Assembly (NCBI GenBank): GCA_964017065.1
Contig: OZ024789.1
Span: 7,320,191-7,384,190, forward strand
Length of the DNA: 64,000 bases
Direction of reading: 5' to 3'
Source of the DNA: Haliclona indistincta
Lineage: Eukaryota; Porifera; Demospongiae; Haplosclerida; Chalinidae
Shown here: positions 8,525-44,192 of the stretch, piece after piece
Position numbering within the stretch: position 1 is the first letter of the stretch
Layout: the number at the start of each line of letters is the position of its first letter
Position numbers and translations under genes: made by a program
Notes under the pieces: model-generated
What the model was told of the DNA's origin: nothing
What the model saw: the letters and a program-made list of their open reading frames with translations, nothing else
Databases searched by the model: none

Positions 8525-8597
8525 GTAAGACATGATACATGATACATGTACGTGCGTACTATCACAGAATCTAACTGGTATGGGCCCTTGATGGTAT

Positions 8598-8846
8598 CAG
8601 GAGCGCATATAAACAAGGGAGCATGTAACTCTGTAAACGGCGAAATCCTAAAATGGCGGCTGTTCTAAAAATAATAGTTTCCATATAAGAACTATAATCC
8701 ATATAAGGTCTATAATTTCAACCGCGCCTCCACCCGGTATACTTTATATGGAAGTAACTAAAATAGCAAGTCAGCCATATTAGGATTTCGCCGTTATATG
8801 GGGTAGTGTTCAGAGTTACATGCTCCCTTGTTTATATGCGCTCCTG
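8598..8846. mobile_element. 249-bp MITE with 36-bp terminal inverted repeats
   Basis: Perfect inverted ends, 8598-8633 and 8811-8846, begin CAGGAGCGCATATAAACAAG. The inner sequence GGCGAAATCCTAA is repeated inverted as well. The direct repeat ATGGTAT flanks both sides (8591-8597 and 8847-8853). The paralogous positions near 17056 and 32770 are empty (CCCTTGGTGTTCAATACC), which confirms an insertion after the array formed. Confidence 0.85.
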
Positions 8847-9247: not shown

Positions 9248-10246
9248 TCATTGCTGCATCTGGTTATTGTTCTTGTGTAGTAGTAATCGTGTGTCCTCTT
9301 CATTCTCACTCACTGGTATGTATTCAGTGTTACATGTCTCTGACATTCCTTCACTAGTATATACACCGGTACGATACGTGCAACGATGGTTAATGCTTCC
9401 ATATCTAACTGCTGGTTCTCTTCTTCTCTTGCTTCTCAACCTGTTTCTTACTGAGAAGAGATGTACAGCAACTGATACAGCAGAAAATAATCCTGGTATA
9501 CCATAAATAACGTTTCTAGATATAAATACTGTAAATATAATACCAGTGTTGTTTTGTAAATTGTTTGTTATAGAATAAACAAGACAAAAGGAAAAAGCTG
9601 GTAGTATTGTTAGGATAAAGAATGGCAATATTTCTATCAGTGCCTTTCTGTGGCTCTCTTTAGTAGCAGTAGTCTTCATACACATGTTATATCCACAAGC
9701 TCTACAACTCAGTGGTACTACTGCCAATAAAGTGAATACAATGTTTAAAATAAAAAATATAATTAAACAAATCTCTTCAGTCAGTTTAATTGCTGGACCA
9801 CAATTACTGCATGCATACATTAATATTAGCAATATTGCCCATAACATTAGAGCGATGATGAATGGTATGAACAAACAAAGATCAGCTTTGTATGTGAACT
9901 GATAGTTGTGTAGAGCCATAAGATATATACTGATGGAAATACATACACCAATCATTAATGCAACTACTAGGCAACCAATTATAAACATTGAAAAGGTTTG
10001 TATAACAGAATCTATGTTTACATCTTGTGTTGTCCTTAAAATAATCAAAGAATATTCAATTGCAGTAGCCAAAGATGAGCCAATCAGTGGTAAGAGTTTG
10101 TAAAGCACCAGACGATAGATGAATTTATGCCACAACTTGTAGTATAGCAGAGCTGCCACAGCAATGATACATGTTACAGTAGACACACCTGCTAAAGATA
10201 CGGTGACAATATCGGACTGGAGCAAGGAATTGTTGTTGGTGTCCAT
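9248..10246 (-). CDS. 7TM receptor A1 (GPCR-like), antisense in CaV intron
   Basis: An intronless 332-residue protein with seven hydrophobic segments at about 12-36, 48-70, 83-112, 122-145, 158-180, 203-226 and 236-265. It has a short N-terminus and a charged cytoplasmic tail of about 65 residues ending EDTRLLLHKNNNQMQQ. Loop 1 is basic (WHKFIYRLVLYK), as expected for an inside loop. I see no DRY, NPxxY or class B/C hallmarks. It belongs to an orphan 7TM group and the ligand is unknown. It sits antisense between the CaV S5 exon (8524) and the pore exon (10507), so it is nested in the channel gene. Asn-linked sites (NNS, NNT) lie in outside segments. Confidence 0.85.
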   Translation of the reverse strand: MDTNNNSLLQSDIVTVSLAGVSTVTCIIAVAALLYYKLWHKFIYRLVLYKLLPLIGSSLATAIEYSLIILRTTQDVNIDSVIQTFSMFIIGCLVVALMIGVCISISIYLMALHNYQFTYKADLCLFIPFIIALMLWAILLILMYACSNCGPAIKLTEEICLIIFFILNIVFTLLAVVPLSCRACGYNMCMKTTATKESHRKALIEILPFFILTILPAFSFCLVYSITNNLQNNTGIIFTVFISRNVIYGIPGLFSAVSVAVHLFSVRNRLRSKRRREPAVRYGSINHRCTYRTGVYTSEGMSETCNTEYIPVSENEEDTRLLLHKNNNQMQQ

Positions 10247-10506: not shown

Positions 10507-11863
10507 TTGTTTGGTACTATTGAGATTGGTTCAGTGGATGATATCACACCCACTACTGCTATCACTACCTACAACAACTTTGCTAACTTTCCTCAAGCAG
10601 CACTAGTCATGATCAGGTTATCTCTTCATGCTATTCTCAATCCTGTCTGACCCTTTCTTCTATAAATAAATGAAGATGTCTAACTGGCGAGAACTGGGAA
10701 CAAGTAATGCTATCATGTTCAGGTAGTGCACCTTGTGATCCATCAGTCAACATGACTAATTCTTGTGGCAGTCATGCTAGCTACGTGTTTTTTCCATTAT
10801 TCTTCTTGGTTGGAGTGATTTTGGTGAGTACGTGGTACATGAAATGGATGAATGAATAAATAAATGAATGAGTGGAGGGTTTCATTCAGAAATATATTTT
10901 GTATCAGCTTCATAGGGGGTCTGGGGTGTGCCCCAGATAGTTTTTGCATTTTTAAGCCTCCTGAGAGTGATTTGGGGTATTTTGGACACCAAAGCAGCAG
11001 CACACATGTAACTTTTGAGCGCTGTATGAACTCTGGAGTGATTGGACTACATTCTGTACAATTTTTGCCTTTTTATAGATTCTTAATTTGTTTGTTGCGA
11101 TCATTATTGATAACTTTGACTACTATGTACGTGACAAGTCTATCCTGGGCTCTCATCATCTCGCTGAGTTTCCTTTTCTCTGGGCCAAGTATGATCCCAA
11201 TGGCACGTAAGTACATCACGTAGTATTAAATGTACTTTATTATGTATTGATTTATAGTGGTAGGATAATACATCATGATCTGATGAAACTAATGAGATCA
11301 CTCAATCCACCGCTGGGGTGGGGAAAGTTGTGCCCCCAAGAACTGGCTTATTGGGTATAATACTAATTCTTCTCTCTTTTCTTTCCTACCTCTCTCTCTT
11401 CTCTTTATACCATCTCATTCTATTATTCAGAAAATGATGCAGTTAAACATTCCACTAAATGAAGATGGTACTATTGATTTCTACAGTACATTGCTTAGTA
11501 TTGTGTGTCGAGCACTGTCCATTGAGACACAAGGTATTAACACAGAAGAACGGATATAATGTTATTGCTACCCTTTATTTAGGTGACATTGCTTCTTTAA
11601 AGCAAAGGTTGAAAGTACTGTTTCCTGACAAAGGACTGGATAAGATTCTCCCAACAGATACCGGTACTGTAGTTATCAGTTGTATAGTTACTATGATAAT
11701 ATTTACTACTAGATACTACCAAACCTTACTATGCTGCTCTACTGGTACAATATCACTGGAGAAGATGGAAAGTAAAGAATGAAAAAGCCATATCTAAACC
11801 TCAGCTACGAAGAAGAAAACTAAGCATGATGGTATGTAGCATGATAGAGTCAACTCTGTGTGT

Positions 11864-11904
<41 letters not shown>

Positions 11905-11925
11905 CGTGTGTGCGAGCGTGCGTGC

Positions 11926-11956
<31 letters not shown>

Positions 11957-12626
11957 CGTGTGCGTGCGTGCGTGTGTGTATGAGTAATGTCTGCAAGACC
12001 TTTATGACCTGTATATTTTTATCTCACAAGGCACTATATCGTACTCCTGATATTGGACCACAGCTACTACAGAGACGGTTCACTGCAACCAGCATACCAA
12101 CAGCACCCACTCTATTGAGCCCCACTGCAGTAAGTCTATAAACCCTATTTCCAAACTCTTTGTTTATGAATACACATTAGATCATACATAATTTGAATGC
12201 AATTCAGCCTAGGTTGGGTAGATATACATGTAGATTTTTGAAATTGATTTCAGCAGTAACTGGATTCATAGAATGTGCACATTCTGATTATTATTTGTAC
12301 ATTACTCTCTTCTCTCTTAGCCTCTAACAACTCCAGAGGAAGAACTCTCAGTAGAACTAGGCAGACGGTCATCAATTAATCGTAAATCTGTCCCTCTACT
12401 GAACACACTTGGTACTATCATAGAGTCAAAATCTGAAGAAGTGATTGAAGAGGTAGCAGAGGAAGAGGAAGAAGAAAAGATTGAAAGACGACTGATACAG
12501 CGTGCCAGTATGTTTTCAGAGGCTGAGACATTTGTATCTGCTCCCTCGTCTCCTCAAGAGTCACTTTTATCATTATATTATAGCGACACTGAAGAGGAGA
12601 GAAATATATTAGAAACAGCAGTATAA
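10507..12626 (+). CDS. CaV 3' cassette 1: domain IV pore, S6, EF-hand/IQ region and C-terminal tail
   Basis: Nine exons in matching phase: 10507-10616, 10676-10823, 11079-11206, 11258-11354, 11431-11533, 11583-11663, 11713-11831, 12031-12129, 12321-12626. They continue directly from the S5 exon at 8524 (FSVTGIH then LFGTIEIG). The P-loop reads [13 protein letters not shown] then [12 protein letters not shown], giving the fourth filter glutamate. S6 is [17 protein letters not shown]. The EF-hand-like region ([23 protein letters not shown]) and an IQ-like calmodulin site ([11 protein letters not shown]) follow. The tail is Glu-rich and ends ETAV. All frames are open and all splice sites are present. 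As the cassette nearest to the upstream exons, it is the default end of the channel. Confidence 0.92.
11856..11988 (+). repeat. (GT)n microsatellite in CaV cassette 1 intron
   Basis: Interrupted GT dinucleotide run between the IQ exon and the penultimate exon. A run of different length and interruption pattern occupies the same intron in the other three cassettes. Confidence 0.95.
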
Positions 12627-12887: not shown

Positions 12888-13928
12888 TCATTGCTGCATC
12901 TGGTTATTGTTCTTGTGTAGTAGTAATCGTGTGTCCTCTTCATTCTCACTCACTGGTATGTATTCAGTGTTACATGTCTCTGACATTCCTTCACTAGTAT
13001 AAACACCGGTACGATACGTGCAACGATGGTTAATGCTTCCATGTCTAACTGCTGGTTCTCTTCTCTTGCTTCTCAACTTGTTTCTTACTGAGAAGAGATG
13101 TACAGCAACTGATACAGCAGAAAATAATCCTGGTAAACAATAAAAGAAATTTCGGGACACACATGTAAATAATGAATACAGAAAATCATTGCTGTTTTGT
13201 AATATATCTAATATAATAAACACAATGATGTAGGAGAAAAGTGGTAATAATGTTAGAATGAAGAATGGCAATATTTCTATCAGTGCCTTCCTGTGGCTCT
13301 CTTTAGTAGCAGCAGTCTTCATACACATGTTATATCCACAAGCTCTACAACTCAGTGGTACTACTGTTAGTAAAGTAAATACAATGTTTACAAGAAAACA
13401 TACAATCGAAGCAATCTCTTCAGTCGGTGTAATTGCTGGACCACATTTTTTACCACATCCAAAAATTAATATAATTAATATTGCCAATGCTATTAAAGGA
13501 AGAATGGATAGTACGAGCAAGCAAAGATCAGCTTTGTATGTGAACTGGTAGTTGTGTAGAGCCATAAGATATATACAGATGGAAATACATACCCCAATCA
13601 TTGTTGCAAATACTAGGCCACCAATAACAATTGATCCAAAGGTTCTATTGACAATAACAGAAGTTACGTCATCTTGTCTTTTTTCCATGATGATTAAGAC
13701 AATCCATATTGCGGTAGACAAAGATGAGCCAATCAGTGATAAGAGTTTGTAAAGCACCAAACGATAGATGAATTTATGCCACAACTTGTAGTATAGCAGA
13801 GCTGCCACAGCAATGATACATGCTACAGTAGACACACCTGCTAAAGATACGGTGAAAATATCGGACTGGAGCAAGGAAATGTTGCTAATATTCAAGCAAG
13901 ACATGTTGACAGTCACATGTAGAACCAA
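12888..13928 (-). CDS. 7TM receptor B1 (GPCR-like)
   Basis: An intronless 346-residue paralogue of A1. TM1, the start of TM2 and the last 100 residues are nearly the same as in A1, but TM2-TM7 outer parts differ (e.g. a GCGKKCGPAITPTEEI loop). The N-terminus is MVLHVTVNMSCLNISNIS, with two potential N-glycosylation sites. A second start at MSCLN (13904) is shared by all B copies and may be the true one. It lies tail-to-tail with CaV cassette 1, about 260 bases away. Confidence 0.83.
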   Translation of the reverse strand: MVLHVTVNMSCLNISNISLLQSDIFTVSLAGVSTVACIIAVAALLYYKLWHKFIYRLVLYKLLSLIGSSLSTAIWIVLIIMEKRQDDVTSVIVNRTFGSIVIGGLVFATMIGVCISICIYLMALHNYQFTYKADLCLLVLSILPLIALAILIILIFGCGKKCGPAITPTEEIASIVCFLVNIVFTLLTVVPLSCRACGYNMCMKTAATKESHRKALIEILPFFILTLLPLFSYIIVFIILDILQNSNDFLYSLFTCVSRNFFYCLPGLFSAVSVAVHLFSVRNKLRSKRREPAVRHGSINHRCTYRTGVYTSEGMSETCNTEYIPVSENEEDTRLLLHKNNNQMQQ

Positions 13929-14109: not shown

Positions 14110-14340
14110 ACTATTCTTCCCCTACTCTTTGTTACATCATCACCTACAACTACTTTGCTAACATAAGCAACACTAGTTATGATTAGGTTATCCTTCCTTC
14201 ATGCTTTTCTCTATCCTGTTTAACTCTTTTCATAAAGATGTCACCCTAGCTGGCAAGGAGAACTAGGAACAGGTAACGCTGTCTTGTTTGGTTAGTGCAC
14301 CTTGTGATCCATCAGTCAATATGACTTCTTGTTGTGCATG
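14110..14340 (+). pseudogene. Decayed CaV domain IV pore exons (relic)
   Basis: Degenerate copies of two CaV exons. CTACAACTACTTTGCTAAC with ACTAGTTATGATTAGGTTAT corresponds to the end of the pore exon and its donor. Then ACTAGGAACAGGTAAC and GTGCACCTTGTGATCCATC correspond to the filter exon. Indels destroy the frame. It marks an older round of cassette duplication. Equivalent relics are at 27716 and 38040. Confidence 0.8.
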
Positions 14341-14490
14341 GAAAAGTTGAATGAGTGAGTGAGTTTATAAGTGATAAATTGCTTATCGACACTATTGGAT
14401 TTAAGAATACAGCAAATGAAAAACAAGTAACTGGCACATAAAATACACTATTTTAAAGTAGTTTGTTCACTGTAACTTTCTCTTGCTTGA

Positions 14491-16983
14491 TCAGAACTGC
14501 TCCTTCAACTCTGTCAATGAAGTTAGCATATCGTCTTCAAACTGCATGCAGGTGCACAAACATAAAATAAAGTACACGAGTCACCTCACCTGAACGTCTG
14601 TAGTAGAGATAAGGGCAGTCAACATATTGTATAACACCTGCCATCAGTTAGATCTCTAGTTCATGTACACCAGATGTTAGTATCAAGCCAATCCAGGGTC
14701 AATCAGTGAGGAAAGACAAAGATGTGTGATTATAATACAGGTATAATGTTGGTTCAGCTGGAACTAGTCAGTCAAATCCAACTGAGAGTCACAACAACAA
14801 CAACACAGTATTTATATGACAATGATTACAATGACTGACTAGTGTTCTATACAACATGTGACAATGTTACACACGTACCTTATCACATGGTTTAGTTTAC
14901 AATGCCTGGTTTCATACTAAAGCGTGTTGCACCTGACGCTGGAGGCTGAACAGAGCTTTAAAACAAATTTCAGTCAATACACATGTGGCAGGCTTACAGT
15001 ACAATTAACAATAGTATCAGTATCATTTCTAGTGTTATAATAATTTGTTCAGCATAATAATTACGTATTTGCCTATAGCCTAAATATTTGGTGATTGAGG
15101 TGCATGTCCTAGTCATGTTCCTCCTCTCTTTCTTTTTTCTCTGTTGCTGGAACAGTAGCATGTGTGTCTGTCAGTGGATCAAACACCTGCAAATCAGCAG
15201 TGGTAGTCACTGTGGAGGTGCTGGTGGTAGTCAGTTCAGGTGTTGTTGACGATGGAGAGATTATATCAGCAGAGAGAGGTACATGTTCATCACTTTGTGC
15301 TGTTGGTATCGTCGTGGTTGTGGGTGTTAGAGCAGCTGGTTGCAGGCTTGCTGCTGGTGCCGCTACTTCTGTAACTGTTTGACTATCCGGTGATTCCATT
15401 AGATTCAACAGCTCTCCTCCTGGCTCAGTACTTTCCAGCGGTCCTCGGAATGACCCAGTACTGAGTGACTTAGGAATTGATCTTAATGGTTCGTGTGATG
15501 CTGGTTTTTCTGGTTCAAATGACTGTAAGTAAAGGTTTGTAAAGTGCTATGTATAGTATTGAGACAGTGTTACCTGTTGTGCATCCACTGCACCAGACAG
15601 CTGTTCCATTACCATTAGGGATGGAGACTGCTGCTCCTATACTCACAGGAACAGTCATGATGATACAGTAAATATGAATCAGCCGCTTTTACCCACTTAC
15701 CGTGATTAATTTCACTGCAACACGAATTGCTTCAATGACAGACTGACAAACCTATAAAAAGACATTGTATTATTTGCAGTCACCAGTAAATTGATGATTA
15801 CTTACAGCTTTGCCAGAAAGACTGGCCTCAAATACATGACAAACATGTTTATCTCGTCCTGGATCAGTCGTCTTGGAGATGATGCCAAGCAGTCTGTGCA
15901 AAGATTGAAGATAAAATTACTACATGGTATAATCCTGTACTTGTGGTTATCAGGGTGCTTGGCACAGTATGATATGTCCTTGAGCTTGAACTGCACACTG
16001 AGCTTGCCTGTCACCTTATCCATTAAACTACAATGGAAATATTGACATTACAGCAAATTACAAATTATTATAGCTAAACGGACCTTACTGATCGATGTGT
16101 GACTACCAAGTTGACACTGAAGTTTTTCATAATATTTTTCAGAGCTCTTGCTGCAATAATTCGCCTGATAGCCTCAGTAACTATACGAAGACCTGTATTT
16201 CGGAATGTCACACGATCACTGGACTGTATATTGAAGGGGTACGTACCTTTATTTGCAGGCACTTCCATTGAACCCAGGTAGACCACCTCAAAGCTCTGCA
16301 GATAGCTACCTCGTGAGGTGTCTGGAGAAGCAGTATCAGCCAGTTCTAGTAACTGCTGAACAGTTGTGGAGGCAAAAGCAGATCTGCTACCATTAGTCTG
16401 TGAACTGATGAGTAAAATATCATAAATTTTGCACATAAAATCTAAAATTATGCATAATCTACCTATTGATAAGCAAACTGGTATTATTTACATTAGTCAT
16501 TACGGTCATAGATCTACAGTCTTGGAGTGCTACTCAATAATATAATACTTCTGACTATTTTTACCTTGATGGTGTTTGGGTGCTACCACGTTTTCTTGGA
16601 GGTGGAGGATGAGGAGGAGCTCTCATAGAGTAAGTATGCTGCCGGAGTTTACTATCAGGTCGTTCAGAAGATTTCAGAGAAGTCTTTTTCTTTCCACTGC
16701 TGCTACTAGTGCCTGGTGTCACTTCGTGCTGTACCCATGAACGTATTTTCTGCCTCTCCATTCTGCAAAATGAAGTTAATACACAAATTATGTTGCAAAG
16801 TGAACTAGAGTATATGACAATACCTGATCAGCTCAGAGTCGGACCGTTCTCTGCCAGTAGTATCAGATACCTGAAGTTGCAAACATGGTATCATCATCAT
16901 GCGATACATAGCTACTATTCTCTTACATCCACAAGCTGAGATTTTGATGGTGATTTGCTTGCATTGTTGACAACTGCAGTCCA
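14491..16983 (-). pseudogene. APPL-type gene, 5'-truncated copy 1 (end of PH domain, linker, PTB, C-terminus)
   Basis: Carries the exons equivalent to exon 14 onward of the full gene at 38433-44192: the last PH helix (WTAVVNNASK), the Ser/Pro-rich linker, the PTB domain (SFEVVYLGSMEV) and the Thr/Ser-rich C-terminal exon stopping at 15109. The downstream small exon ending LTELKEQF is at 14491. Reading frames and splice sites look intact, but the BAR domain and most of PH are absent. Homology stops in the intron before exon 14, near 17027, where CaV-intron sequence begins. Without its own promoter it is either a pseudogene or an alternative 3' end for read-through from 44192. An extra 51-base in-phase exon (about 16463-16513) is intact here. 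Confidence 0.8.
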
Positions 16984-17019: not shown

Positions 17020-17060
17020 AAAATTTGTGCTGTCAGTTCTAATCTAACTGGTATGGGCCC
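17020..17060. other. Array junction: APPL intron fused to CaV intron
   Basis: Left of about 17027 the sequence follows APPL intron 13 (compare 42175). Right of it the sequence follows the CaV intron (compare 8567, TCTAACTGGTATGGGCCC). The same junction recurs near 32745. It is a tandem-duplication breakpoint. Confidence 0.85.
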
Positions 17061-17470
17061 TTGGTGTTCAATACCTGATAATGGCACTCACTATTGCATA
17101 GACTAGTGAGTAACAATCTGATCGATCAGTTGGCTGTATAATATAATTTATATCAGTTGGCTGTACAGAACGGTTATCTCTGTGTAATAGTACTATTGTA
17201 TATGTATTGAGAATTATAAATATTACTACATTTACACAATACTGTTACTTTAATGAAAAAAAGGTTTGCAATAGTATGGTAAGATGTAGGAAAAAACATA
17301 ATAAAAAACACATAATGAAAAGAAAAAGATAAAGAAAATAAGATAAAGCTACATGTAGTAGTTATGATAAAACTAACTAACTAATAAGGAAAAAGATGAA
17401 TAAAGTACCCAAAAGAACATTTGCAACTACATTTACACTGACTGAAAATATCAAATGAGAGCAGAATGGT

Positions 17471-18472
17471 TCATTGCTGCATCTGGTTATTGTTCTTGTG
17501 TAGTAGTAGTAATCGTGTGTCCTCTTCATTCTCACTCACTGGTATGTATTCAGTGTTACATGTCTCTGACATTCCTTCACTAGTATAAACACCGGTATGA
17601 TACGTGCAATGATGATTAATGCTTCCATATCTAACTGCTGGTTCTCTTCTTCTCTTGCTTCTCAACTTGTTTCTTACTGAGAAGAGATGTACAGCAACTG
17701 ATATAGCAGAAAATAATCCTGGTACACCGTAAAAAACGTTTCTGAATATAAATACTGTAAATATAATACTAGTGTTGTTTTGTAAATTGCTTGTTATAAA
17801 ATAAACAAGACAAAAGGAAAAAGTTGGTAGTATTGTTAGGATAAAGAATGGTAATATTTCTATCAGTGCCTTTCTGTGGCTCTCTTTAGTAGCAGTAGTC
17901 TTCATACACATGTTATGTCCACAAGCTCTACAACTCAGTGGTACTACTGTCAATAAAGTGAATACAATGTTTACAAGAAAAAATATAATTGAACAAATCT
18001 CTTCAGTCGGTATAATTGCTGGACCACAATTACTGCATGCATACATTAATATCATCAATATTGCCCATAACATTAGAGCGATGATGAATGGTATGAACAA
18101 GCAAAGATCAGCTTTGTATGTGAACTGATAGTTGTGTAGAGCCATAAGATATATACAGATGGAAATACATACACCAATCATTAATGCAACTACTAGGCAA
18201 CCGATTGCAAACATTTCAAAGGTTCGTATAACAAAATATATGTTTACATCTTGTCTTGTCCTTAAAATAATCAAAGAAACTCCAATTGTAGTAGCCAAAG
18301 ATGTGCCAATCAGTGATAAGAGTTTGTAAAGCACCAAACGATAGATGAATTTATGCCACAACTTGTAGTATAGCAGAGCTGCCACAGCAATGATACATGT
18401 TACAGTAGACACACCTGCTAGAGATACGGTGACAATGTCAGATTTCAAGAGAGTGTTGTTGTTGGTGTCCAT
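17471..18472 (-). CDS. 7TM receptor A2 (GPCR-like)
   Basis: A 333-residue A-type paralogue, MDTNNNTLLKSDIVTVSL at the start and the common tail ending NNNQMQQ with one extra Leu. Seven hydrophobic segments are intact. It differs from A1 mainly in TM2 and the outer loops. It precedes CaV cassette 2 exactly as A1 precedes cassette 1. Confidence 0.83.
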   Translation of the reverse strand: MDTNNNTLLKSDIVTVSLAGVSTVTCIIAVAALLYYKLWHKFIYRLVLYKLLSLIGTSLATTIGVSLIILRTRQDVNIYFVIRTFEMFAIGCLVVALMIGVCISICIYLMALHNYQFTYKADLCLFIPFIIALMLWAILMILMYACSNCGPAIIPTEEICSIIFFLVNIVFTLLTVVPLSCRACGHNMCMKTTATKESHRKALIEILPFFILTILPTFSFCLVYFITSNLQNNTSIIFTVFIFRNVFYGVPGLFSAISVAVHLFSVRNKLRSKRRREPAVRYGSINHHCTYHTGVYTSEGMSETCNTEYIPVSENEEDTRLLLLHKNNNQMQQ

Positions 18473-18766: not shown

Positions 18767-21001
<2,235 letters not shown>

Positions 21002-22033: not shown

Positions 22034-22383
22034 GTCAGCTAGACCGTCTCTAAAGAGTAATATTAGAATCTGTTGTTGAAATAGGTACATTGTAGATATG
22101 ATGTAGACTGTGTTATCTTATCAAAAGTGACCTTAGTAGTATCAACAGTTCCGTTAGGCTCTTGGTGATAACATAATGTAACCAAGTTGTTTTAAAATTT
22201 CTACATGCCAAAGTCACTGCATGTGTTTAGGAATTTGGAATGGGAATTCTGACTTACTGTCTCTTTTCTTCAGTTGTTTGGTACTATCAGGATTGGTTCA
22301 GTGGATGATATCACACCCACTACTGCTATCACTACCTACAACAACTTTGCTAACTTTCCTCAAGCAGCACTAGTCATGATCAG

Positions 22384-25432: not shown

Positions 25433-25435
<3 letters not shown>

Positions 25436-25484
<49 letters not shown>

Positions 25485-25550
25485 CGTGCGTGTGTGCGTG
25501 TGTGTGTGTGTGTGTGTGTGCGGGCGTGTGTGTGTGTGTGCGTGTGTGTA
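25436..25550 (+). repeat. (GT)n microsatellite in CaV cassette 3 intron
   Basis: Interrupted GT tract at the position homologous to 11856. Confidence 0.95.
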
Positions 25551-27715: not shown

Positions 27716-27960
27716 ACCTGATGACACTATTCTCCCCCTACTCTTTGTTACATCATCACCTACAACTACTTTGCTAACATAAGCAACACTAGTTATGATT
27801 AGGTTATCCTTCCTTCATGCTTTTCTCTATCCTGTTTAACTCTTTTCATGAAGATGTCACCCTAGCTGGCAAGGAGAACTAGGAACAGGTAACGCTGTCG
27901 TGTTTGGTTAGTGCACCTTGTGATCCATCAGTCAATATGACTTCTTGTTGTGCATGGAAA
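27716..27960 (+). pseudogene. Decayed CaV domain IV pore exons (relic, second copy)
   Basis: Same decayed pore/filter-exon pair as at 14110, with the same frame-breaking changes. The relic was therefore already decayed before this unit was duplicated. Confidence 0.8.
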
Positions 27961-31349: not shown

Positions 31350-33174
31350 TACTCACAGGAACAGTCATGATGATACAGTAAATATGAATCAGCCCCTTTT
31401 ACCCACTTACCGTGATTAATTTCACTGCAACACGAATTGCTTCAATAACCGACTGACAAACCTATAAAAAGACATTGTGTTATTTGCAATTACCAGTAAA
31501 TTGATGATTCCTTACAGCTTTGCCGGAAAGACTGGCCTCAAATACATGGCAAACATGTTTATCTCGTCCTGGATCAGTCGTCTTGGAGATGATGCCAAGC
31601 AGTCTGTGCAAAGATTGAAGATAAAAATTACTACATGGTATAATCCTGTACTTGTGGTTATCAGGGTGCTTGGCACAGTATGATATGTCCTTGAGCTTGA
31701 ACTGCACACTGAGCTTGCCTGTCACCTTATCCATTAAACTACAATGGAAATATTGACATTACAGCAAATCACATAATAATTATAGCTAAACGGACCTTAC
31801 TGATCGATGTGTGACTACCAAGTTGACACTGAAGTTTTTCATAATATTTTTCAGAGCTCTTGCTGCAATAATTCGCCTGATAGCCTCAGTAACTATACGA
31901 AGACCTGTATTTCGGAATGTCACACGATCACTGGACTGTATATTGAAGGGGTACGTACCTTTATTTGCAGGCACTTCCATTGAACCCAGGTAGACCACCT
32001 CAAAGCTCTGCAGATAGCTACCTCGTGAGGTGTCTGGAGAAGCAGTATCAGCCAATTCTAGTAACTGCTGAACAGTTGTGGAGGCAAAAGCAGATCTGCT
32101 ACCATTAGTCTGTGAACTGATGAGTAAAATATCATAAATTTTGCACATAAAATGCATAATCTACCTATTGATAAGCAAACTGGTATTATTTACATTAGTC
32201 ATTACTGTCATAGATCTACAGTCTTGGAGTGCTACTCAATAATATAATACTTCTGACTATCTTTACCTTGATGGTGTTTGGGTGCTACCACGTTTTCTTG
32301 GAGGTGGAGGATGAGGAAGAGCTCTCATTGAGTAAGTATGCTGCCGGAGTTTACTATCAGGTCGTTCAGAAGATTTCAGAGAAGTCTTTTTCTTTCCACT
32401 GCTGCTACTAGTGCCTGGTGTCACTTCGTGCTGTACCCATGAACGTATTTTCTGCCTCTCCATTCTGCAAAATGAAGTCAATACACAAATTATGTTGCAA
32501 AGTGAACTAGAGTATATGACAATACCTGATCAGCTCAGAGTCGGACCGTTCTCTGTCAGTAGTATCAGATACCTGAAGTTGCAAACATGGTATCATCATG
32601 CGATACATAGCTACTATTCTCTTACATCCACAAGCTGAGATTTTGATGGTGATTTGCTTGCATTGTTGACAACTGCAGTCCACTACAGAAAAACATTCAA
32701 AAATTTAAGCTGCTATACAAAATTTGTGCTGTCAGTTCTAATCTAACTGGTATGGGCCCTTGGTGTTCAATACCTGATAATGGCACTCACTATTGCATAG
32801 ACTAGTGAGTAACAATCTGATCGATCAGTTGGCTGTATAATATAATTTATATCAGTTGGCTGTACAGAACGGTTATCTCTGTGTAATAGTACTATTGCAT
32901 ATGTATTGAGAATTATAAATATTACTACATTTACACAATACTGTTACTTTAATGAAAAAAAGGTTTGCAATAGTATGGTAAGATGTAGGAAAAAACATAA
33001 TAAAAAACACATAATGAAAAGAAAAGAAAAAGATAAAGAAAATAAGATAAAGCTACATGTAATAGTTATGATAAAACTAACTAACTAATAAGGAAAAAGA
33101 TAAATAAAGTACCCAAAAGAACATTTCAAACTACATTTACACTGACTGAAAATATCAAATGAGAGCAGAATGGT

Positions 33175-34176
33175 TCATTGCTGCATCTGGTTATTGTTCT
33201 TGTGTAGTAGTAGTAATCGTGTGTCCTCTTCATTCTCACTCACTGGTATGTATTCAGTGTTACATGTCTCTGACATTCCTTCACTAGTATAAACACCGGT
33301 ACGATACGTGCAATGATGATTAATGCTTCCATATCTAACTGCTGATTCTCCTCTTCTCTTGCTTCTCAACCTGTTTCTTACTGAGAAGAGATGTACAGCA
33401 ACTGATACAGCAGAAAACAATCCTGGTATACCAAAAACAACGTTTCTAAGTATAAATACTGAAAATATAATATCAGTGTTGTTTTGTAAAATGTTTACTA
33501 TAATAAGAACAAGACAAAAGGAAAAAGCTGGTAGTATTGTTAGGATAAAGAATGGTAATATTTCTATCAGTGCCTTTCTGTGGCTCTCTTTAGTAGCAGT
33601 AGTCTTCATACACATGTTATGTCCACAAGCTCTACAACTCAGTGGTACTACTGTCAATAAAGTAAATACAATGTTTACAAGAAAAAATACAATTGAACAA
33701 ATCTCTTCAGTCAGTGTAGTTGCTTCATAACATTTGCTGCATACATGCATTAATATCATCAATATTGCCCATAACACTAGAGCGATGATGAATGGTATGA
33801 ACAAGCAAAGATCAGCTTTGTATGTGAACTGATAGTTGTGTAGAGCCATAAGATATATACAAATGGAAATACATACACCAATCATTAATGCAACTACTAG
33901 GCAACCGGTTGCAAACATTGCAAAGGTTTGTATAACAAAACTTATGTTTACATCTTGTTTTGTCCTTACAATAATCAAAGAAACTCCAATTGTAGTAGCA
34001 AAAGATGAGCAAATCAGTGATAAGAGTTTATAAAGCACCAAACGATAGATGAATTTATGCCCCAACTTGTAGTATAGCAGAGCTGCCACAGCAATGATAC
34101 ATGTTACAGTAGACACACCTGCTAAAGATACGGTGACAATGTCAGATTTCAAGAGAGTGTTGTTGTTGATGTCCAT
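33175..34176 (-). CDS. 7TM receptor A4 (GPCR-like)
   Basis: A 333-residue A-type paralogue (MDINNNTLLKSDIVTV). The third outer loop differs from the other A copies (HVCSKCYEATTLTEEI instead of a CGPAI form). The Trp of the basic first loop is Gly (YYKLGHKFIYRL). Frame open, seven hydrophobic segments. It precedes CaV cassette 4. Confidence 0.82.
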   Translation of the reverse strand: MDINNNTLLKSDIVTVSLAGVSTVTCIIAVAALLYYKLGHKFIYRLVLYKLLSLICSSFATTIGVSLIIVRTKQDVNISFVIQTFAMFATGCLVVALMIGVCISICIYLMALHNYQFTYKADLCLFIPFIIALVLWAILMILMHVCSKCYEATTLTEEICSIVFFLVNIVFTLLTVVPLSCRACGHNMCMKTTATKESHRKALIEILPFFILTILPAFSFCLVLIIVNILQNNTDIIFSVFILRNVVFGIPGLFSAVSVAVHLFSVRNRLRSKRRGESAVRYGSINHHCTYRTGVYTSEGMSETCNTEYIPVSENEEDTRLLLLHKNNNQMQQ

Positions 34177-34450: not shown

Positions 34451-35850
34451 TTGTTTGGTACTATCAGGATTGGTTCAGTGGATGATATCACACCCACTAC
34501 TGCTATCACTACCTACAACAACTTTGCTAACTTTCCTCAAGCAGCACTATAGTCATGATCAGGTTATCTCTTCATCGCTCTATTCTCAATCCTGTTTGAC
34601 CCTTTCTTCTATGATTAATAAAGATGTCTAACTGGTGAGAACTGGGAACAAGTAATGCTATCATGTTCGGGTAGTGCACCTTGTGATCCATCAGTCAACA
34701 TGACTAATTCTTGTGGCAGTCATGCTAGCTACGTGTTTTTTCCATTATTCTTCTTGGTTGGAGTGATTTTGGTGAGTACATGTGGTACATGAAATGGGTG
34801 AATAAATGAATGAGTTTGTGAGTGCAGGGTTTCATTCAGAAATATATTTTTCCACTGTATCAGATTCATAGGGGGTCTGGGGTGTGCCCCAGATAGTTTT
34901 TGCAATTATAAGCCTCCTGAGGGTGATTTTGGGATATTTTGGACACCAAATTTAAGCAGCAGCACACATGTAACTTTTGAGCGCTGTATGAACTCTGGAG
35001 TGATTGGACTACATTCTGTACAATTTTTGCCTTTTTATAGATTCTTAATTTGTTTGTTGCGATCATTATTGATAACTTTGACTACTATGTACGTGACAAG
35101 TCTATCCTGGGCTCCCATCATCTCGCTGAATTTCCTTTCCTCTGGGCCAAGTATGATCCCAATGGCACGTAAGTACATCACGTAGTATTAAATGTACTTT
35201 ATTATGTATTGATTTATAGTGGTAGGATAATACATCATGATCTGATGAAACTAATGAGATCACTCAATCCACCGCTGGGGTGGGGAAAGTTGTGCCCCCA
35301 AGAACTGGCTTATTGGGTATAATAATAATTCTTCTCTCTTTTCTTTCCTACCTCTCTCTCTTCTCTTTATACCATCTCATTCTATTATTCAGAAAATGAT
35401 ACAGTTAAACATTCCACTAAATGAAGATGGTACTATTGATTTCTACAGTACATTGCTTAGTATTGTGTGTCGAGCACTGTCCATTGAGACACAAGGTATT
35501 AACACAGAAGAACGGATATAATGTTATTGCTACCCTTTATTTAGGTGACATTGCTTCTTTAAAGCAAAGGTTGAAAGTACTGTTTCCTGACAAAGGACTG
35601 GATAAGATTCTCCCAACAGATACCGGTACTGTAGTTATCAGTTGTGTAGTTACTATGATAATATTTACTACTAGATACTACCAAACCTTACTATGCTGCT
35701 CTACTAGTACAATATCACTGGAGAAGATGGAAAGTAAAGAATGAAAAAGCCATATCTAAACCTCAGCTACGAAGAAGAAAACTAAGCATGATGGTATGTA
35801 GCATGATAGAGTCAACTCTGTGTGTGTGTGTGTGTGTGTGCGTGTGTGCG

Positions 35851-35926
<76 letters not shown>

Positions 35927-36578
35927 GTGTGTGTTTGTGTGTGTGTGTGCGTGTGTGTATGAGTAATGTCTGCAAGACCTTTATGACCTGTATATTTTTA
36001 TCTCTCAAGGCACTATATCGTACTCCTGATATTGGACCACAGCTACTGCAGAGACGGTTCACTGCAACCAGCATACCAACAGCACCGACTCTATTGAGCC
36101 CCACTGCAGTAAGTACTCTCTGTTTATGAATACACATTAGATCACTTAATTGTAGATGCAATTCAGCCTAGGTTGGGTAGATATACATGTAGATTTTTGA
36201 AATTGCATTAACTGGATTCATAGAATGTGCACATTCTCATTATTCTGTGTACATTACTCTCTTCTCTCTTAGCCTCTAACAACTCCAGAGGAAGAACTCT
36301 CGGTAGAACTAGGCAGACGGTCATCAATTAATCGTAAATCTGTCCCTCTACTGAACACACTTGGTACTATCATAGAGTCAAAATCTGAAGAAGTGATTGA
36401 AGAGGTAGCAGAGGAAGAGGAAGAAGAAAAGACTGAAAGACGACTGATACAACGTGCCAGAATGTTTTCAGAGGCTGAGACATTTGTATCTGCTCCCTCG
36501 TCTCCTCAAGAGTCACTTTTATCATTATATTATAGCGACACTGAAGAGGAGAGAAATATATTAGAAACAGCAGTATAA
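34451..36578 (+). pseudogene. CaV 3' cassette 4, frameshifted in the pore exon
   Basis: Nine homologous exons: 34451-34562, 34624-34771, 35041-35168, 35220-35316, 35393-35495, 35545-35625, 35675-35793, 36010-36108, 36273-36578. The first is 112 rather than 110 bases: a TA insertion in GCAGCACTATAGTCATG makes a TAG stop right after NFPQAAL. The other eight exons remain open and keep their splice sites, including TGENW and the IQ-like region. The lesion looks recent, or conversion keeps the rest clean. If used as a terminal cassette, the product would stop just before the domain IV filter. Confidence 0.85.
35819..35967 (+). repeat. (GT)n microsatellite in CaV cassette 4 intron
   Basis: GT tract with a few GC and TT interruptions, homologous in position to the other three. 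Confidence 0.95.
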
Positions 36579-36837: not shown

Positions 36838-37851
36838 TCATTGCTGCATCTGGTTATTGTTCTTGTGTAGTAGTAGTAATCGTGTGTCCTCTTCATTCTC
36901 ACTCACTGGTATGTATTCAGTGTTACATGTCTCGGACATTCCTTCACTAGTATAAACACCGGTACGATACGTGCAACGATGGTTAATGCTTCCATGTCTA
37001 ACTGCTGGTTCTCTTCTTCTTTTGCTTCTCAACTTGTTTCTTACTGAGAAGAGATGTACAGCAACTGATACAGCAGAAAATAATCCTGGTAAACAATAAA
37101 AGAAATTTCGGGACACACATGTAAATATTGAATACAGAAAATCATTGCTTTTTTGTAATATATCTAATATAATAAACACAATGATGTAGGAGAAAAGTGG
37201 TAACAATGTTAGAATGAAGAATGGCAATATTTCTATCAGTGCCTTTCTGTGGCTCTCTTTAGTAGCAGTAGTCTTCATACACATGTTATGTCCACAAGCT
37301 CTACAACTCAGTGGTACTACTGTTAGTAAAGTGAATACAATGTTTACAAGAAAACATATAATCGAAGCAATCTCTTCAGTCGGTGTAATTGCTGGACCAC
37401 ATTTTTTACCACATCCAAAAATTAATATAATTAATATTGCCAATGCTATTAAAGGAAGAATGGATAGTACGAGCAAGCAAAGATCAGCTTTGTATGTGAA
37501 CTGGTAGTTGTGTAGAGCCATAAGATATATACAGATGGAAATACACACCCCAATCATTGTTGCAAATACTAGGCCACCAATAACAATTGATCCAAAGGTT
37601 CTATTGACAATAACATAAGTTACGTCATCTTCCATGATGATTAAGACAATCCATATTGCGGTAGACAACGATGAGCCAATCAGTGATAAGAGTTTGTAAA
37701 GCACCAAACGATAGATGAATTTATGCCACAACTTGTAGTATAGCAGAGCTGCCACAGCAATGATACATGCTACAGTAGACACACCTGCTAGAGATACGGT
37801 GACAATATCGGACTGGAGCAAGGAAACGTTGCTAATATTCAAGCAAGACAT
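36838..37851 (-). CDS. 7TM receptor B3 (GPCR-like)
   Basis: A B-type paralogue. The open frame reaches back to 37992, but the Met used at the start of B1 and B2 is Leu here (LVLHETVN). I place the start at MSCLNISN (37851), which is shared by all B copies and gives 337 residues. Four residues are missing in the first outer loop (EKRQDD becomes EDD). Tail-to-tail with CaV cassette 4. Confidence 0.78.
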   Translation of the reverse strand: MSCLNISNVSLLQSDIVTVSLAGVSTVACIIAVAALLYYKLWHKFIYRLVLYKLLSLIGSSLSTAIWIVLIIMEDDVTYVIVNRTFGSIVIGGLVFATMIGVCISICIYLMALHNYQFTYKADLCLLVLSILPLIALAILIILIFGCGKKCGPAITPTEEIASIICFLVNIVFTLLTVVPLSCRACGHNMCMKTTATKESHRKALIEILPFFILTLLPLFSYIIVFIILDILQKSNDFLYSIFTCVSRNFFYCLPGLFSAVSVAVHLFSVRNKLRSKRRREPAVRHGSINHRCTYRTGVYTSEGMSETCNTEYIPVSENEEDTRLLLLHKNNNQMQQ

Positions 37852-38039: not shown

Positions 38040-38290
38040 TTACCTGATGACACTATTCTTCCCCTACTCTTTGTTACATCATCACCTACAACTACTTTGC
38101 TAACATAAGCAACACTAGTTATGATTAGGTTATCCTTCCTTCATGCTTTTCTCTATCCTGTTTAACTCTTTTCATGAAGATGTCACCCTAGCTGGCAAGG
38201 AGAACTAGGAACAGGTAACGCTGTCGTGTTTGGTTAGTGCACCTTGTGATCCATCAGTCAATATGACTTCTTGTTGTGCATGGAAAAGTT
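38040..38290 (+). pseudogene. Decayed CaV domain IV pore exons (relic, third copy)
   Basis: Third copy of the broken pore/filter-exon pair, next to 7TM B3, with the same lesions as at 14110 and 27716. Confidence 0.8.
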
Positions 38291-38432
38291 GAATGAGTGA
38301 GTGAGTTTATAAGTGATAAATTGCTTATCGACACTATTGGATTTAAGAATACAGCAAATGAAAAACAAGTAACTGGCACATAAAATACACTATTTTAAAG
38401 TAGTTTGTTCACTGTAACTTTCTCTTGCTTGA

Positions 38433-41400
38433 TCAGAACTGCTCCTTCAACTCTGTAAATGAAGTTAGCATATCGTCTTCAAACTGCAGGTGCACAAACA
38501 TAAAATAAAGTACACGAGTCACCTCACCTGAACGTCTGTAGTAGAGATAAGGGCAGTCAACATATTGTATAACACCTGCCATCAGTTAGATCTCTAGTTT
38601 ATGTACACCAGATATTAGTATCAAGCCAATCCAGGGTCAATCACTGAGGAAAGACAAAGATGTGTGATTATAATACAGGTATAATGTTGGTTCAGCTGGA
38701 ACTAGTCAGTCAAATCCAACTGAGAGTCACAACAACAACAACAACACAGTATTTATATGACAATGATTACAATGACTGACTAGTGTTCTATACAACATGT
38801 GACAATGTTACACACGTACCTTATCACATGGTTTAGTTTACAATGCCTGGTTTCATACTAAAGCGTGTTGCACCTGACGCTGGAGGCTGAACAGAGCTTT
38901 AAAACAAATTTCAGTCAATACACATGTGGCAGGCTTACAGTACAATTAACAATAGTATCAGTATCATTTCTAGTGTTATAATAATTTGTTCAGCATAATA
39001 ATTACGTATTTGCCTATAGCCTAAATATTTGGTGATTGAGGTGCATGTCCTAGTCATGTTCCTCCTCTCTTTCTTTTTTCTCTGTTGCTGGAACAGTAGC
39101 ATGTGTGTCTGTCAGTGGATCAAACACCTGCAAATCAGCAGTGGTAGTCACTGTGGAGGTGCTGGTGGTAGTCAGTTCAGGTGTTGTTGACGATGGAGAG
39201 ATTACATCAGCAGAGAGAGGTACATGTTCATCACTTTGTGCTGTTGGTATCGTTGTGGTTGTGGGTGTTAGAGCAGCTGGTTGCAGGCTTGCTGCTGGTG
39301 CCGCTACTTCTGCTACTGTTTGACTATCCGGTGATTCCATTAGATTCAACAGCTCTCCTCCTGGCTCAGTACTTTCCAGCGGTCCTCGGAATGACCCAGT
39401 ACTGAGTGACTTAGGAATTGATCTTAATGGTTCGTGTGATGCTGGTTTTTCTGGTTCAAATGACTGTAAGTAAGGCTTGTAAAGTGCTATGTATAGTATT
39501 GAGACAGTGTTACCTGTTGTGCATCCACTGCACCAGACAGCTGTTCCATTACCATTAGGGATGGAGACTGCTGCTCCTATACTCACAGGAACAGTCATGA
39601 TGATACAGTAAATATGAATCAGCCACTTTTACCCACTTACCGTGATTAATTTCACTGCAACACGAATTGCTTCAATAACCGACTGACAAACCTATAAAGA
39701 GACATTGTGTTATTTGCAATCACCAGTAAATTGATGATTCCTTACAGCTTTGCCGGAAAGACTGGCCTCAAATACATGACAAACATGTTTATCTCGTCCT
39801 GGATCAGTCGTCTTGGAAATGATGCCAAGCAGTCTGTGCAAAGATTGAAGATAAAATTAATACATGGTATAATCCTGTACTTGTGGTTATCAGGATGCTT
39901 GGCACAGTATGATATGTCCTTGAGCTTGAACTGCACACTGAGCTTGCCTGTCACCTTATCCATTAAACTACAATGGAAATATTGACATTACAGCAAATCA
40001 CATAATATAGCTAAACGGACCTTACTGATCGATGTGTGACTACCAAGTTGACACTGAAGTTTTTCATAATATTTTTCAGAGCTCTTGCTGCAATAATTCG
40101 CCTGATAGCTTCAGTAACTATACGAAGACCTGTATTCCAGAATCTAACATGCTCACTGGACTGTATATTGAAGGAGTACGTACCTTTATTTGCAGGCACT
40201 TCCATTGAGCCAAGGTAGACCACCTCAAAGCTCTGCAGATAGCTACCTCGTGAGGTGTCAGGAGAAGCAGTATCAGCCAGTTCTAGTAACTGCTGGACAG
40301 TTGTGGAGGCAAAAGCAGATCTGCTACCATTAGTCTGTGAACTGATGAGTAAAATATCATTTGAAGTTTGCACATAAAACCTAAATCATGCATATTAGGG
40401 AGACACGGTAGTGTCTCCCTATGTAGGGTTGAACGAGAAAACAAGATGGCGGCTACATACAATGTATTAGCGTTCAAACGCTGATATTTCGCCTGGTGAT
40501 GAATTTTATACGTCCAAAGACACTTAAATCTGCTATCTGGCGTTGCCCCATCTTACAGTAGCAAGGAGATTGCTCGAGATTGTTAATAAACTGACGAACC
40601 TGGAAACGGTGAAAATCGAGTTTCGTCATCTTCGTTTTCTTCTTTCTTCTTTCTTCTTTCTTCCACTCGCCTAGCACCTTTACGTGAGCAGTGCCGAGAC
40701 CAAAACACCCACGAACAGTCGTGAAATTCTCCTGGCATGTGCCTTTTGAACTTAGTTTTTAGCTAAACGGCGATATAAATTCCGCGATTTCTCGATCGTG
40801 ATCCATTGTCAGCTAAGTGTTAGACGCCATTAGTGATTGCGCAATACGCACGTGACCAAGCTGTGGTTAGCGCACGTGACCAAGCACAAGCTTGAGTATC
40901 GCCACGCCGTATAGATCACGGAGAACACATATTTGTCTGGAGTCTTCGAAGAACGGTAAGCTAGCAAGCGCAGAATCACCATTCTGCCTTGCCAGATAAT
41001 TATAACATCCGTAAACAAGTGTGGGCGGGGCTCATATGCACTGTATTCATGCATGCGTAGGCGAGCTGATATCTACAGCATAACAATTATTTAGCTACAA
41101 GTTTAGAATTGTTAATAATAAAAAAAGCCATCAACAACAGGAAAACCATACCAATGGTGGAAACAAAGATGGCACAGTAATTGCATGATGTTGAACTGTA
41201 CTTCACTGAAAAAGAAAAAAGGACACAAACAAGAAAATTAAAAAGATTTCTATCGAAATCAAAAGGATGTAGGGTTGTGAAATCTACCACTGGTCAACAA
41301 TGCAAACTAACAAGGAACAAGCATGGAATGGTAACACGATTGACTTGCTAACAGACCATAGATCCCTACATCAGTGGCTGTACATAAGCTGAATGCACGT

Positions 41401-44192
41401 CAGGTGTCAGTCAACAGCAACAAGCTAAGCTGAACTAGCTATAGTCAACTACAGCAGCCACTGATGTAGGGATCTATGGTCTGTTAGCAAGTCAATCGTG
41501 TTACCATTCCATGCTTGTTCCTTGTTAGTTTGCATTGTTGACCAGTGGTAGATTTCACAACCCTACATCCTTTTGATTTCGATAGAAATCTTTTTAATTT
41601 TCTTGTACAGCTAAAAATCTGCCTGTTGATAGGCAAACTGGTATTATTTACACTATTATAGATCTACAGTCTTGCAGTGCTACTCAATATAATACTTCTG
41701 ACTATTTTTACCTTGATGGTGTTTGGGTGCTACCACGTTTTCTTGGAGGTGGAGGACGAGGAGGAGCTCTCATAGAGTAAGTATGCTGCCGGAGTTTACT
41801 ATCAGGTCGTTCAGAAGATTTCAGAGAAGTCTTTTTCTTTCCACTGCTGCTAGTAGTCGTGCCTGGTGTCACTTCGTGCTGTACCCATGAACGTATTTTC
41901 TGCCTCTCCATTCTGCAAAATAAAGTCAATACATAAATTATGTTGCAAAGTGAACAAGAGTATGACAATACCTGATCAGTTCTGAGTCGGAACGTTCTCT
42001 GCCAGTAGTATCAGATACCTGAAGTTGCAAACATGGTATCATCATACAATACGCAGCTACTATTCTCTTACATCCACAAGCTGAGATTTTGATGGTGATT
42101 TGCTTGCATTGTTGACAACTGCAGTCCACTACAGAAAAGATTCAAAAATTTTAAGCTACTAAACAAAATTTGTGCATACCTCATCTCTAGTTTTTGCACA
42201 TTCAGCTTGAAATAGCAGCGGTCTAACAAGAACAATTACATCAATATTAGTATCAGTAAAATGCATGAATCTACTTTTTCATGACATCGTTCACAATTTG
42301 AAATACGTATCTCCTGTCATCAGTCTCAACTGCTTCTGCTACTACTTGATGTCCGCTCAAATCTAATACAATCTCTGGCGTCTACAAGAAAGTGTAAAAT
42401 TTTAAACTGCAACATTTAACTACCTTTTGTGGATAGTGAACATATAGAAGATGCTCTTTACTGAAATAGTAACCTCGTTCCCACTTGTTTCTGTAAGCAA
42501 ATCGTTATTGATAATAACACGGGCTTTGTGCATGTCTGCATGAACTACTTACTGTTTATGAAAGAGGTAACCTGATTTTGATTTGAGACTTAAATCAGGC
42601 GGCTTGTATTCGACAAATGGATCTGTAAGCATTAGGTTAAATTTTGTTATGCATTACATGTTTATCTTGTACCTAATGGATCCGGGTCTGGCACACAAAG
42701 CAATGGAGCTCGCTGCTCTAGTGCTTCAAACTGCTTTCTCTGCTGTTTGCTGGATAGCTCATACTCACTCCTCACTCTAAATGGTAATTTTATTTGAAAT
42801 AAACAAATTTTAAAAGTTTATTTTTTGTGTCACAAAGTTTTTTATTGTTATAACCAAGCACTAGTATTAGGCATAACAATAAATGCATGAGAGGAGACTT
42901 GTACAAGAGAAATATTATGAATAAGCAATGCTATAGCTTATCAAAACTGTACTAATGAGAAACTTACTTTTGTATCTCAACATTCAAACTGGTCAAAAAC
43001 CGTCCAACCTCATCAGTGAGTATCTCATGTCCCATTTTGAAGTATGCCATCTATAAGTTGTTATACACATGCTTTATTTATAAATTCAAATAATGGTTTG
43101 TATTGTACCTGAGCATGCATAAAAGACAGCAATGGATCCAGGACTGCATATTTCTTCTTCTGTTGAAAGTTGTTAAGCTCAGAGTAGTAGTGCAGTGAGC
43201 TCTGAATAAACACAGAAAAATTATAAACAACATGCCCAGTACACACTCAATGCCCTAAATTTAGCACTTTAGTAGGAAACCCAACAAAAATTTACTTGAT
43301 TCTGACTTGATTTACTGAGTTTAGGTTCTTAAATCGGGTGATAATGAAATGCTATATGTACCTGAAAGAATGACTTTCTTGCAGTGAAGAGCTCAGAGTT
43401 TGCATCAAACCGACTTCTCTCGGTTTCTTTCTTCTTTGACACTCGAGCGTATTTTGACATTGCTTGTTCATGATCTGTTACCAAGAATAAATTAATTCAA
43501 AACTTGTCAAACTATAAATTGCCTGCTCTTACCAGATCTTGACTGGTCATATGCAAGTTTGAGGCTCTCAAGTTTCGTGAGGTCATTAGAGAGAAAGCTG
43601 TCAAACTGATCTACTACAGCATGATTCAGCTGAGTGCAGAGCATCTCCTGCCATGATTGCATCTTATGGAACAAAAATTTATTGCAACTGATGCATGCAT
43701 GTTTGTAATACACACGTACCTCAGAGACGTGACTACCTAGTCGCTGAAAGGCAGACAACATGAAGGCATCTTTGTCACCTAATGCCTACTCAGAACAAAG
43801 AGCAATATAGAAGTTTTGCTATTAATGTCAAACCTCTTGATTGAATGATTTCAGAACTCTGTTGAACTCAGTCAGTGTCTCTGATACTTTCATCTGAAAA
43901 TCAGAAAATGTTAGTTTTTAATACAGTAACTCGTACTTGTTGTGATTGCAGTGTACGACATGTTTCCTTCAGCTGGTCAGTCAGATCTTTCATAGGAGCT
44001 ACGGTCGCCTCGAGATTCGCCACAGTAGCCTGCGTCTAGCAGAACAAAAAATATTGAGCCCCACCCACAAAGACAAATATTTGGATATAGAGCATTCTAA
44101 GTAGTCATTTGGGTAGTTTTTAATGGTTAGCTTACCTGGGGAGAATCATCCAATGCCGCTTCTAAGTCTAATCGCCCGGTTGCAGTCGGCAT
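38433..44192 (-). CDS. APPL-type adaptor (BAR-PH-PTB), full-length copy
   Basis: Endosomal adaptor family that binds membranes and Rab5-type GTPases. Exons join from MPTATGRLDLEAALDDSPQ: 44192-44136, 44035-43937, 43893-43834, 43785-43720, 43662-43533, 43474-43362, 43201-43109, 43050-42968, 42776-42673, 42622-42553, 42490-42424, 42381-42275, 42222-42180, 42128-42072, 42018-41972, 41912-41712, 40341-40184, 40129-40021, 39967-39881, 39833-39746, 39691-39641, 39576-39514, 39463-39050. This gives about 788 residues (human APPL1 is 709). The coiled BAR domain spans about 1-240, PH about 265-385 (SGYLFHK ... W at the last helix), a basic linker (PPPPRKRGS), then PTB (VVYLGSMEV ... HVFEASLSGKA). The C-terminus is Thr-rich. 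Alternative last exons 38575-38528 and 38483-38433 (ending LTSFTELKEQF) are conserved in all three copies. Exon 17 of the partial copies is damaged here. Domain limits are estimates. Confidence 0.87.
40130..40183 (-). other. 54-base in-frame mini-intron within the PTB exon
   Basis: The - strand reads AATAAAG then GTACGT ... ATACAG then GTCTTCG. Removal joins VPANKG to LRIVTEAIRRIIAARA, which matches the spacing of known PTB domains. The intron is a multiple of three with no stop, so retention would insert 18 residues (19 in the two partial copies, where it is 57 bases). Confidence 0.65.
40395..41605. mobile_element. Hairpin-ended element, short copy, in the full APPL gene
   Basis: The same TTAGGGAGACACGG hairpin end and 3' inverted arms as 29289-31349, flanked by TA. 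It lacks the poly(A)-ended retroposed segment and so represents the simpler form. It lies in the intron between the linker and PTB exons, beside the damaged exon 17. Confidence 0.7.

Follow-up and report, generated by a model that had tools for sequence, protein, structure and literature searches.

The 3' ends of two convergent genes of the sponge Haliclona indistincta, CaV (plus strand) and APPL (minus strand), lie in a multiplied array of 7TM receptor genes. We consider it probable that the receptor cluster has grown by unequal crossing over and that the distal CaV and APPL ends are its passengers, with only the nearest copies likely used. The window, that is, the whole stretch of 64,000 nt analyzed here, comes from a 144-Mb genome. 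The stretch between the last common exons of CaV (ending at 8524) and APPL (ending at 42180) contains four 3' cassettes of CaV and three of APPL, all modelled exon by exon, as well as seven open 7TM genes. The initial annotation had described a convergent CaV/APPL pair with a multiplied common downstream region, and self-comparison of the window together with the exon models confirms it, as well as the proposed four CaV ends (plus strand), three APPL ends (minus strand) and seven antisense 7TM genes, the latter all with open frames. The array order is A1-c1-B1-p1 / J1 / A2-c2-A3-c3-B2-p2 / J2 / A4-c4-B3-p3, where A and B denote 7TM genes (minus strand), c, CaV 3' ends (plus strand), p, APPL 3' ends (minus strand), and J, junctions. 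The features are as follows.

8459..8524, plus strand: last common CaV exon (donor GTAAGA), from its position S5 of domain IV
8598..8846: small element in unit 1, within the CaV intron, with inverted ends and ATGGTAT on both flanks
9248..10246, minus strand: 7TM gene A1, 332 aa, within the CaV intron
10507..12626, plus strand: CaV cassette c1, exons a–i, fully open
12888..13904, minus strand: 7TM gene B1, open frame
14136..14336, plus strand: relic of older CaV exons a–b, copy 1, truncated, with indels
15109..16983, minus strand: APPL cassette p1, most distal, exons 14–22 (17 split in two), open
17030..17062: junction J1, APPL intron 13 fused to the CaV intron, short filler
17471..18472, minus strand: 7TM gene A2, open frame
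18767..21001, plus strand: CaV cassette c2, with every exon and splice site retained, frame open
21041..22033, minus strand: 7TM gene A3, A body with a B-like 3' flank
22274..22383, plus strand: exon a of CaV cassette c3, donor GT lost
22384..24174: inserted element in c3, 1791 bp, inverted ends CCCAGGTA, AG repeated at both sides
24228..26196, plus strand: exons b–i of CaV cassette c3, open
26463..27482, minus strand: 7TM gene B2, open frame
27752..27952, plus strand: relic of CaV exons a–b, copy 2, truncated, with indels
28759..32682, minus strand: APPL cassette p2, open exons, insertion of about 2 kb in intron 20 directly before exon 21
32729..32761: junction J2, breakpoints equal to those of J1
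33175..34176, minus strand: 7TM gene A4, open frame
34451..36578, plus strand: CaV cassette c4, exon a with a 2-bp insertion, reads TAG
36838..37851, minus strand: 7TM gene B3, open frame
38078..38278, plus strand: relic of CaV exons a–b, copy 3, truncated, with indels
39050..42128, minus strand: APPL cassette p3, proximal, exons 14–22, open, insertion of about 1.2 kb in intron 16
42222–42180, minus strand: last common APPL exon (exon 13)
42180..44192, minus strand: APPL common exons 1–13, ATG at 44192, encoding BAR and the greater part of PH

In the self-comparison of the window the interleaved repeats are approximately 84–96% identical across long stretches, and relic pieces, 74–81%. For both genes, the stretches compared with the genome yield the single common 5' part that a locus with alternative 3' cassettes would have, in agreement with the earlier placement of one CaV 5' part at the left and one set of APPL exons 1–13 at the right. 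The APPL stretch 42180–44200 matches only itself; the CaV stretch 6780–8540 has one full match among the best 40 of 65 candidates, the remaining 45 listed matches all falling on query positions 1017–1242, a repeat. Genome-wide, the HVA-channel GPHH domain has four matches, which are the four CaV cassettes (all 8 candidates scored). Scoring of all 17 candidates in the genome gave no APPL end exon outside the array, and the best 40 of 556 candidates included no additional CaV end, most of the others being a GT repeat. The splice sites had been described as mostly kept, and indeed the dinucleotides are intact at 67 of 68 CaV boundaries (36/36 acceptors, 31/32 donors) and at all 57 APPL boundaries (30 acceptors, 27 donors), but exon a is broken in c3 and c4.

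The assignment of the two genes to CaV and APPL is borne out by Pfam domains and, for CaV, also by L-type channels in PDB. Ion_trans and GPHH of CaV score over the Pfam cut-off, and IQ, under it. Cassette c1 consists of nine exons with an open frame of 396 codons and comprises pore loop IV, S6, GPHH/EF, the IQ region and a tail with terminal ETAV; its product matches L-type CaV channels in PDB (E 2.6e-72) over the part that runs from the pore of domain IV to the IQ region. The set expected of an HVA CaV alpha1 (domain IV pore, S6, GPHH and IQ) is thus present. The C-terminal ETAV presumably resembles a PDZ-binding end.

All three distal CaV cassettes are altered, c2 in the tail, c3 in the donor, and c4 by a stop. 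In exon i of c2, a 9-bp insertion and a 1-bp deletion near the stop lead to the loss of both ETAV and the stop, and the cassette gets a longer tail, with TAA at 20999–21001. The donor of exon a in c3 is destroyed by the inserted element, which carries GT 5 nt further on, where splicing would shift the frame. Stops in the readout of c4 are caused by the upstream frame shift in exon a; exons b–i of c3 and c4 have no frame-shifting indels relative to c1, and the two cassettes have a common E-to-R replacement in exon a (110 bp). Entry in frame from the common donor is possible for c1, c2, p1, p2 and p3, and impossible for c3 and c4, broken at exon a. Nor do the cassettes give different products, as these are nearly identical save for the c2 tail. 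The CaV introns leading to exon a would span 1,982 (c1), 10,242 (c2), 13,749 (c3) and 25,926 nt (c4). The small element at 8598..8846 is found only in unit 1 and is missing from both J junction copies. In the passages of PMC5095125 that deal with it, the Amphimedon Cav channel is referred to in the singular, its placement being weakly supported. Two further features are seen in the CaV region: a 378-nt inverted repeat (3841–4218 and 5425–5802, 98% complementary, 1.2 kb apart), and, opposite CaV, a single open frame at 2985–3608 on the minus strand, whose match to nucleotidyltransferases (PF01909) is weak and under the cut-off.

In APPL, the BAR_3, PH and PID domains score over Pfam cut-offs in the order BAR-PH-PTB, as obtained with the unsplit model. 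With p3 the gene was modelled at first with 22 exons, and with 23 once exon 17 had been split at a 54-nt in-frame piece with GT–AG ends (40183–40130, 16246–16193 and 31958–31905), which is likely an intron. We discarded a seeming burst of amino-acid change in exon 17 of p3, because peptide P0117 of a relative indicates the 54-nt in-frame intron, and an intron read as exon imitates rapid protein evolution; after its removal dN/dS of the p1–p3 pair falls from 0.17 to 0.09. Neither of the two distal APPL cassettes is altered. The proximal cassette, placed at 38433–41912 by the initial annotation, starts instead at exon 14 (42128), and its frame stops at 39050, those of p2 and p1 stopping at 28759 and 15109. 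The intron after exon 13 has 51 nt if it leads to p3, 9,497 nt to p2 and 25,196 nt to p1.

Several repeats and gene pieces are observed around APPL. The insertions 29287–31347 (p2) and 40394–41616 (p3), situated in different APPL introns, have common sequence, and the former ends exactly at the exon 21 acceptor. The piece of about 355 bp at 14384–14743 and its copies, downstream of the APPL end, have nine matches outside the window with 84–86% identity, and form a dispersed repeat. A glycosyl hydrolase family 47 piece is located near the APPL start (44928–45266, plus strand), and a hAT-like transposase frame, at 61318–63020 (PF05699 at 62217–63020).

The 7TM genes show the fold of GPCRs: the predicted model is helical, of moderate confidence (mean pLDDT 65), and GPCRs are found in all 50 PDB structure matches listed, with TM (query) of 0.43–0.59. 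No Pfam receptor family matched A1, B1 or P0008, and no relatives of A1 were found in GTDB genomes and IMG/VR. The family also expands elsewhere in the genome: it has at least 121 matches (best 120 of 196 candidates scored), at least 27 of them at C1:7.12–7.24 Mb, many about 2 kb apart. No CaV end was found at this array among the best 40 of 556 candidates, and no APPL end among all 17 candidates scored. Large arrays of related 7TM genes are observed both here and at C1:7.60–7.72 Mb, some genes having in-frame stops. Adjacent clusters of two to eight rhodopsin-like GPCRs are described in sponges in the pertinent part of PMC4302439.

The A and B genes differ by dS of 0.21–0.27, and dN/dS is 0.57–1.59 among the A genes and 0.26–0.59 among the B genes. 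Among the codons of A1–A4, 50 of 140 are variable in the half predicted to be extracellular, compared to 11 of 136 in the intracellular one. We considered and rejected positive selection on the former half of the A receptors: dN/dS is 1.12 with the lowest p 0.0525 of four pairings, so that an excess over 1 is unsupported. In the protein collection, A-type proteins P0003, P0005 and P0007 match no window gene exactly (85–91% to window A genes), and B-type P0008 is 98.5% identical to B3. The collection also holds the APPL exon 17 peptide P0116; the longest listed contig for P0008 and P0116 has 21,947 bases. These five (P0003, P0005, P0007, P0008 and P0116) would represent other haplotypes of the same species.

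The junctions J1 and J2 are the same, their flanks differing at 11 of 958 sites; the breakpoints are 4 nt past APPL exon 13 and about 44 nt past the last common CaV exon. Hence the repeated identical junctions expected from unequal crossing over are observed. The pair A3-c3 forms an extra sub-unit with its junction at the 7TM 3' end, passing from a B-like flank to an A body, a chimera at homologous repeats, which is what a crossover would leave. Moreover, relics of CaV exons a–b, about 75% identical, truncated and with indels by alignment inspection, adjoin all three B genes. The presence of a relic beside each B gene makes it likely that the 7TM ancestor already adjoined CaV exon a, and that the CaV copy of that time has decayed.

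The ends differ among themselves by 4–7% at silent sites. For CaV exons b–i dN/dS is 0.05–0.09 in all six pairs, with dS 4–7% and introns 3–7%, and for the APPL cassettes 0.09–0.19 in all three pairs, with dS 4–5.5%. Lineage changes amount to 12 nonsynonymous and 32 synonymous in distal exons, and 4 and 15 in proximal ones; the two do not differ in constraint (Fisher p 0.76), and p for all distal changes being neutral is 9e-12. Judged from these comparisons, exons of the distal cassettes carry a signature of purifying selection as strong as that of the proximal ones. As the three APPL copies are unrooted, changes can be attributed to the minority copy only approximately, and with this approximation p2 alone looks more relaxed (6:7 nonsynonymous to synonymous; p1, 1:5). 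The counts omit CaV exon a (110 bp), gap codons, stop codons, the c2 change i104, made by the frameshift, and one two-by-two synonymous CaV site; among introns, those omitted are the GT-repeat intron of CaV, its a–b intron in c3 pairs, and those of APPL touched by insertions.

The time the distal ends could have spent unconstrained has a one-sided 95% bound of 0.27% per lineage, which is below the estimated age of J1–J2, 0.57% (interval 0.29–1.03%), so that neutral passengers since J without exchange are mildly disfavoured. Divergence is patchy: most blocks differ between units by about 2–9%, and candidate exchanges are tracts of 0.6–1.3% inside such units. Four blocks (V, VII, VIII and IX) show 0.6–1.2% between u1 and u3 and 1.9–4.7% for u2x, and near J the divergence is 1.1% for u1–u2x and 1.3% for u2–u3. 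In the B block all three pairs differ by 1.4–1.7% and no pair stands out. The CaV block has 100 single-copy and 16 two-by-two sites and is nearly star-like across the four copies, which suggests little recent exchange there.

We favour a scenario in which the 7TM cluster between CaV and APPL would multiply by repeated unequal crossing over, the duplicated units carrying along four CaV and three APPL 3' ends. The CaV exon 8459–8524 would be spliced to c1, the transcript ending there, and APPL exon 13, to p3 across the 51-nt intron, all distal ends presumably being passengers. The cassettes nearest to each 5' part, c1 and p3, are canonical. Moreover, the intron would have to span 9.5 kb to p2 and 25 kb to p1, while 18 of 21 modelled APPL introns have 42–100 nt, which favours p3. 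The duplications are likely retained for the sake of the receptors, whose amino-acid changes are concentrated in the predicted extracellular half. "Recent duplication without function", the plain alternative offered initially, is too simple in view of the strong purifying-selection signature in distal exons, which calls for the distal ends either to be used or to exchange sequence with functional copies. We propose the latter: the apparent constraint on the distal exons may result from exchange between units and functional copies, possibly across divergent haplotypes; alternatively, clean distal exons could stem from recent assembly of the array from divergent haplotypes. Still, constrained distal exons, open p1 and p2, the star-like CaV block and the B block without a special pair are evidence against distal ends being passengers.

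The initial annotation had compared the geometry of the locus to that of clustered alternative exons. In a working locus of this kind the CaV and APPL 5' parts would each be spliced, in opposite directions, to several terminal cassettes. First acceptors are kept in all distal cassettes, dN/dS is low in each of the CaV and APPL pairs, and c2 would yield a channel with a different C-terminus. However, this reading is unlikely, and less probable than duplication with passengers, because entry into c3 and c4 is broken at exon a, the cassettes encode nearly one protein, the proximal APPL intron has just 51 nt, and the older CaV copy has decayed. Real use of distal ends would also explain their clean exons, and hence the two-way reading keeps a small share of the probability. 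It is doubtful that the only HVA CaV of the genome and the endosomal adaptor APPL draw interchangeable last exons, kept by selection, from one array.

It is quite improbable that the distal ends are unused and yet selected as conversion templates, or as a reservoir able to become proximal after deletion: mosaic units, low-divergence tracts and exons b–i open in the CaV copies would agree with it, but selection for such a reserve is expected to be weak, and it explains nothing beyond simple exchange. False copies from an assembly error or merged haplotypes are the least probable. The copies may diverge over a range that overlaps the one between haplotypes, but two haplotypes would be too few for four CaV ends, three APPL ends and seven 7TM genes. 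The window has no Ns. In the protein collection the A1, A3 and A4 proteins (P0001, P0004 and P0006) are listed on two contigs each, and A2 (P0002) once; p2 fragment P0114 is on a 15,226-base contig. These contigs may or may not come from independent reads. Two of 20 small-contig ends, searched against the genome for haplotigs as a yardstick of heterozygosity, each matched only itself.

Among known systems, Drosophila mod(mdg4) and lola similarly have common 5' exons and many alternative 3' cassettes, some of them antisense in mod(mdg4). However, those cassettes differ in the domains encoded and are proven to be used, whereas here we observe near-identical copies, two opposed genes and two broken CaV cassettes. 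The protocadherin and UGT1 clusters share the geometry of tandem cassettes spliced to one common part, but there the variable part is 5' and has its own promoters, while here the multiplied part is 3'. Tandem segmental duplications with partial gene copies, as a general kind, show repeated junctions, partial copies without 5' exons and patchy divergence, all seen here; in contrast to them, here the same units truncate two convergent genes from opposite sides, and the partial copies show purifying selection. Adjacent lineage-specific 7TM receptors of sponges, two to eight in a cluster, are attributed to duplication (PMC4302439), as here; the portion of that paper on these clusters does not describe host-gene 3' ends between receptors, which are present in our locus. 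Among the titles surveyed, a part of the literature, no comparable locus was found.

The C-terminal part of the sole HVA CaV gene found in the genome sits inside a duplicating receptor array. The locus makes it testable how a conserved gene survives beside a duplicating neighbour, and whether the signature of constraint in partial duplicates can stem from exchange rather than use. If the distal ends are in fact used, this would be one alternative-exon system serving two genes simultaneously.
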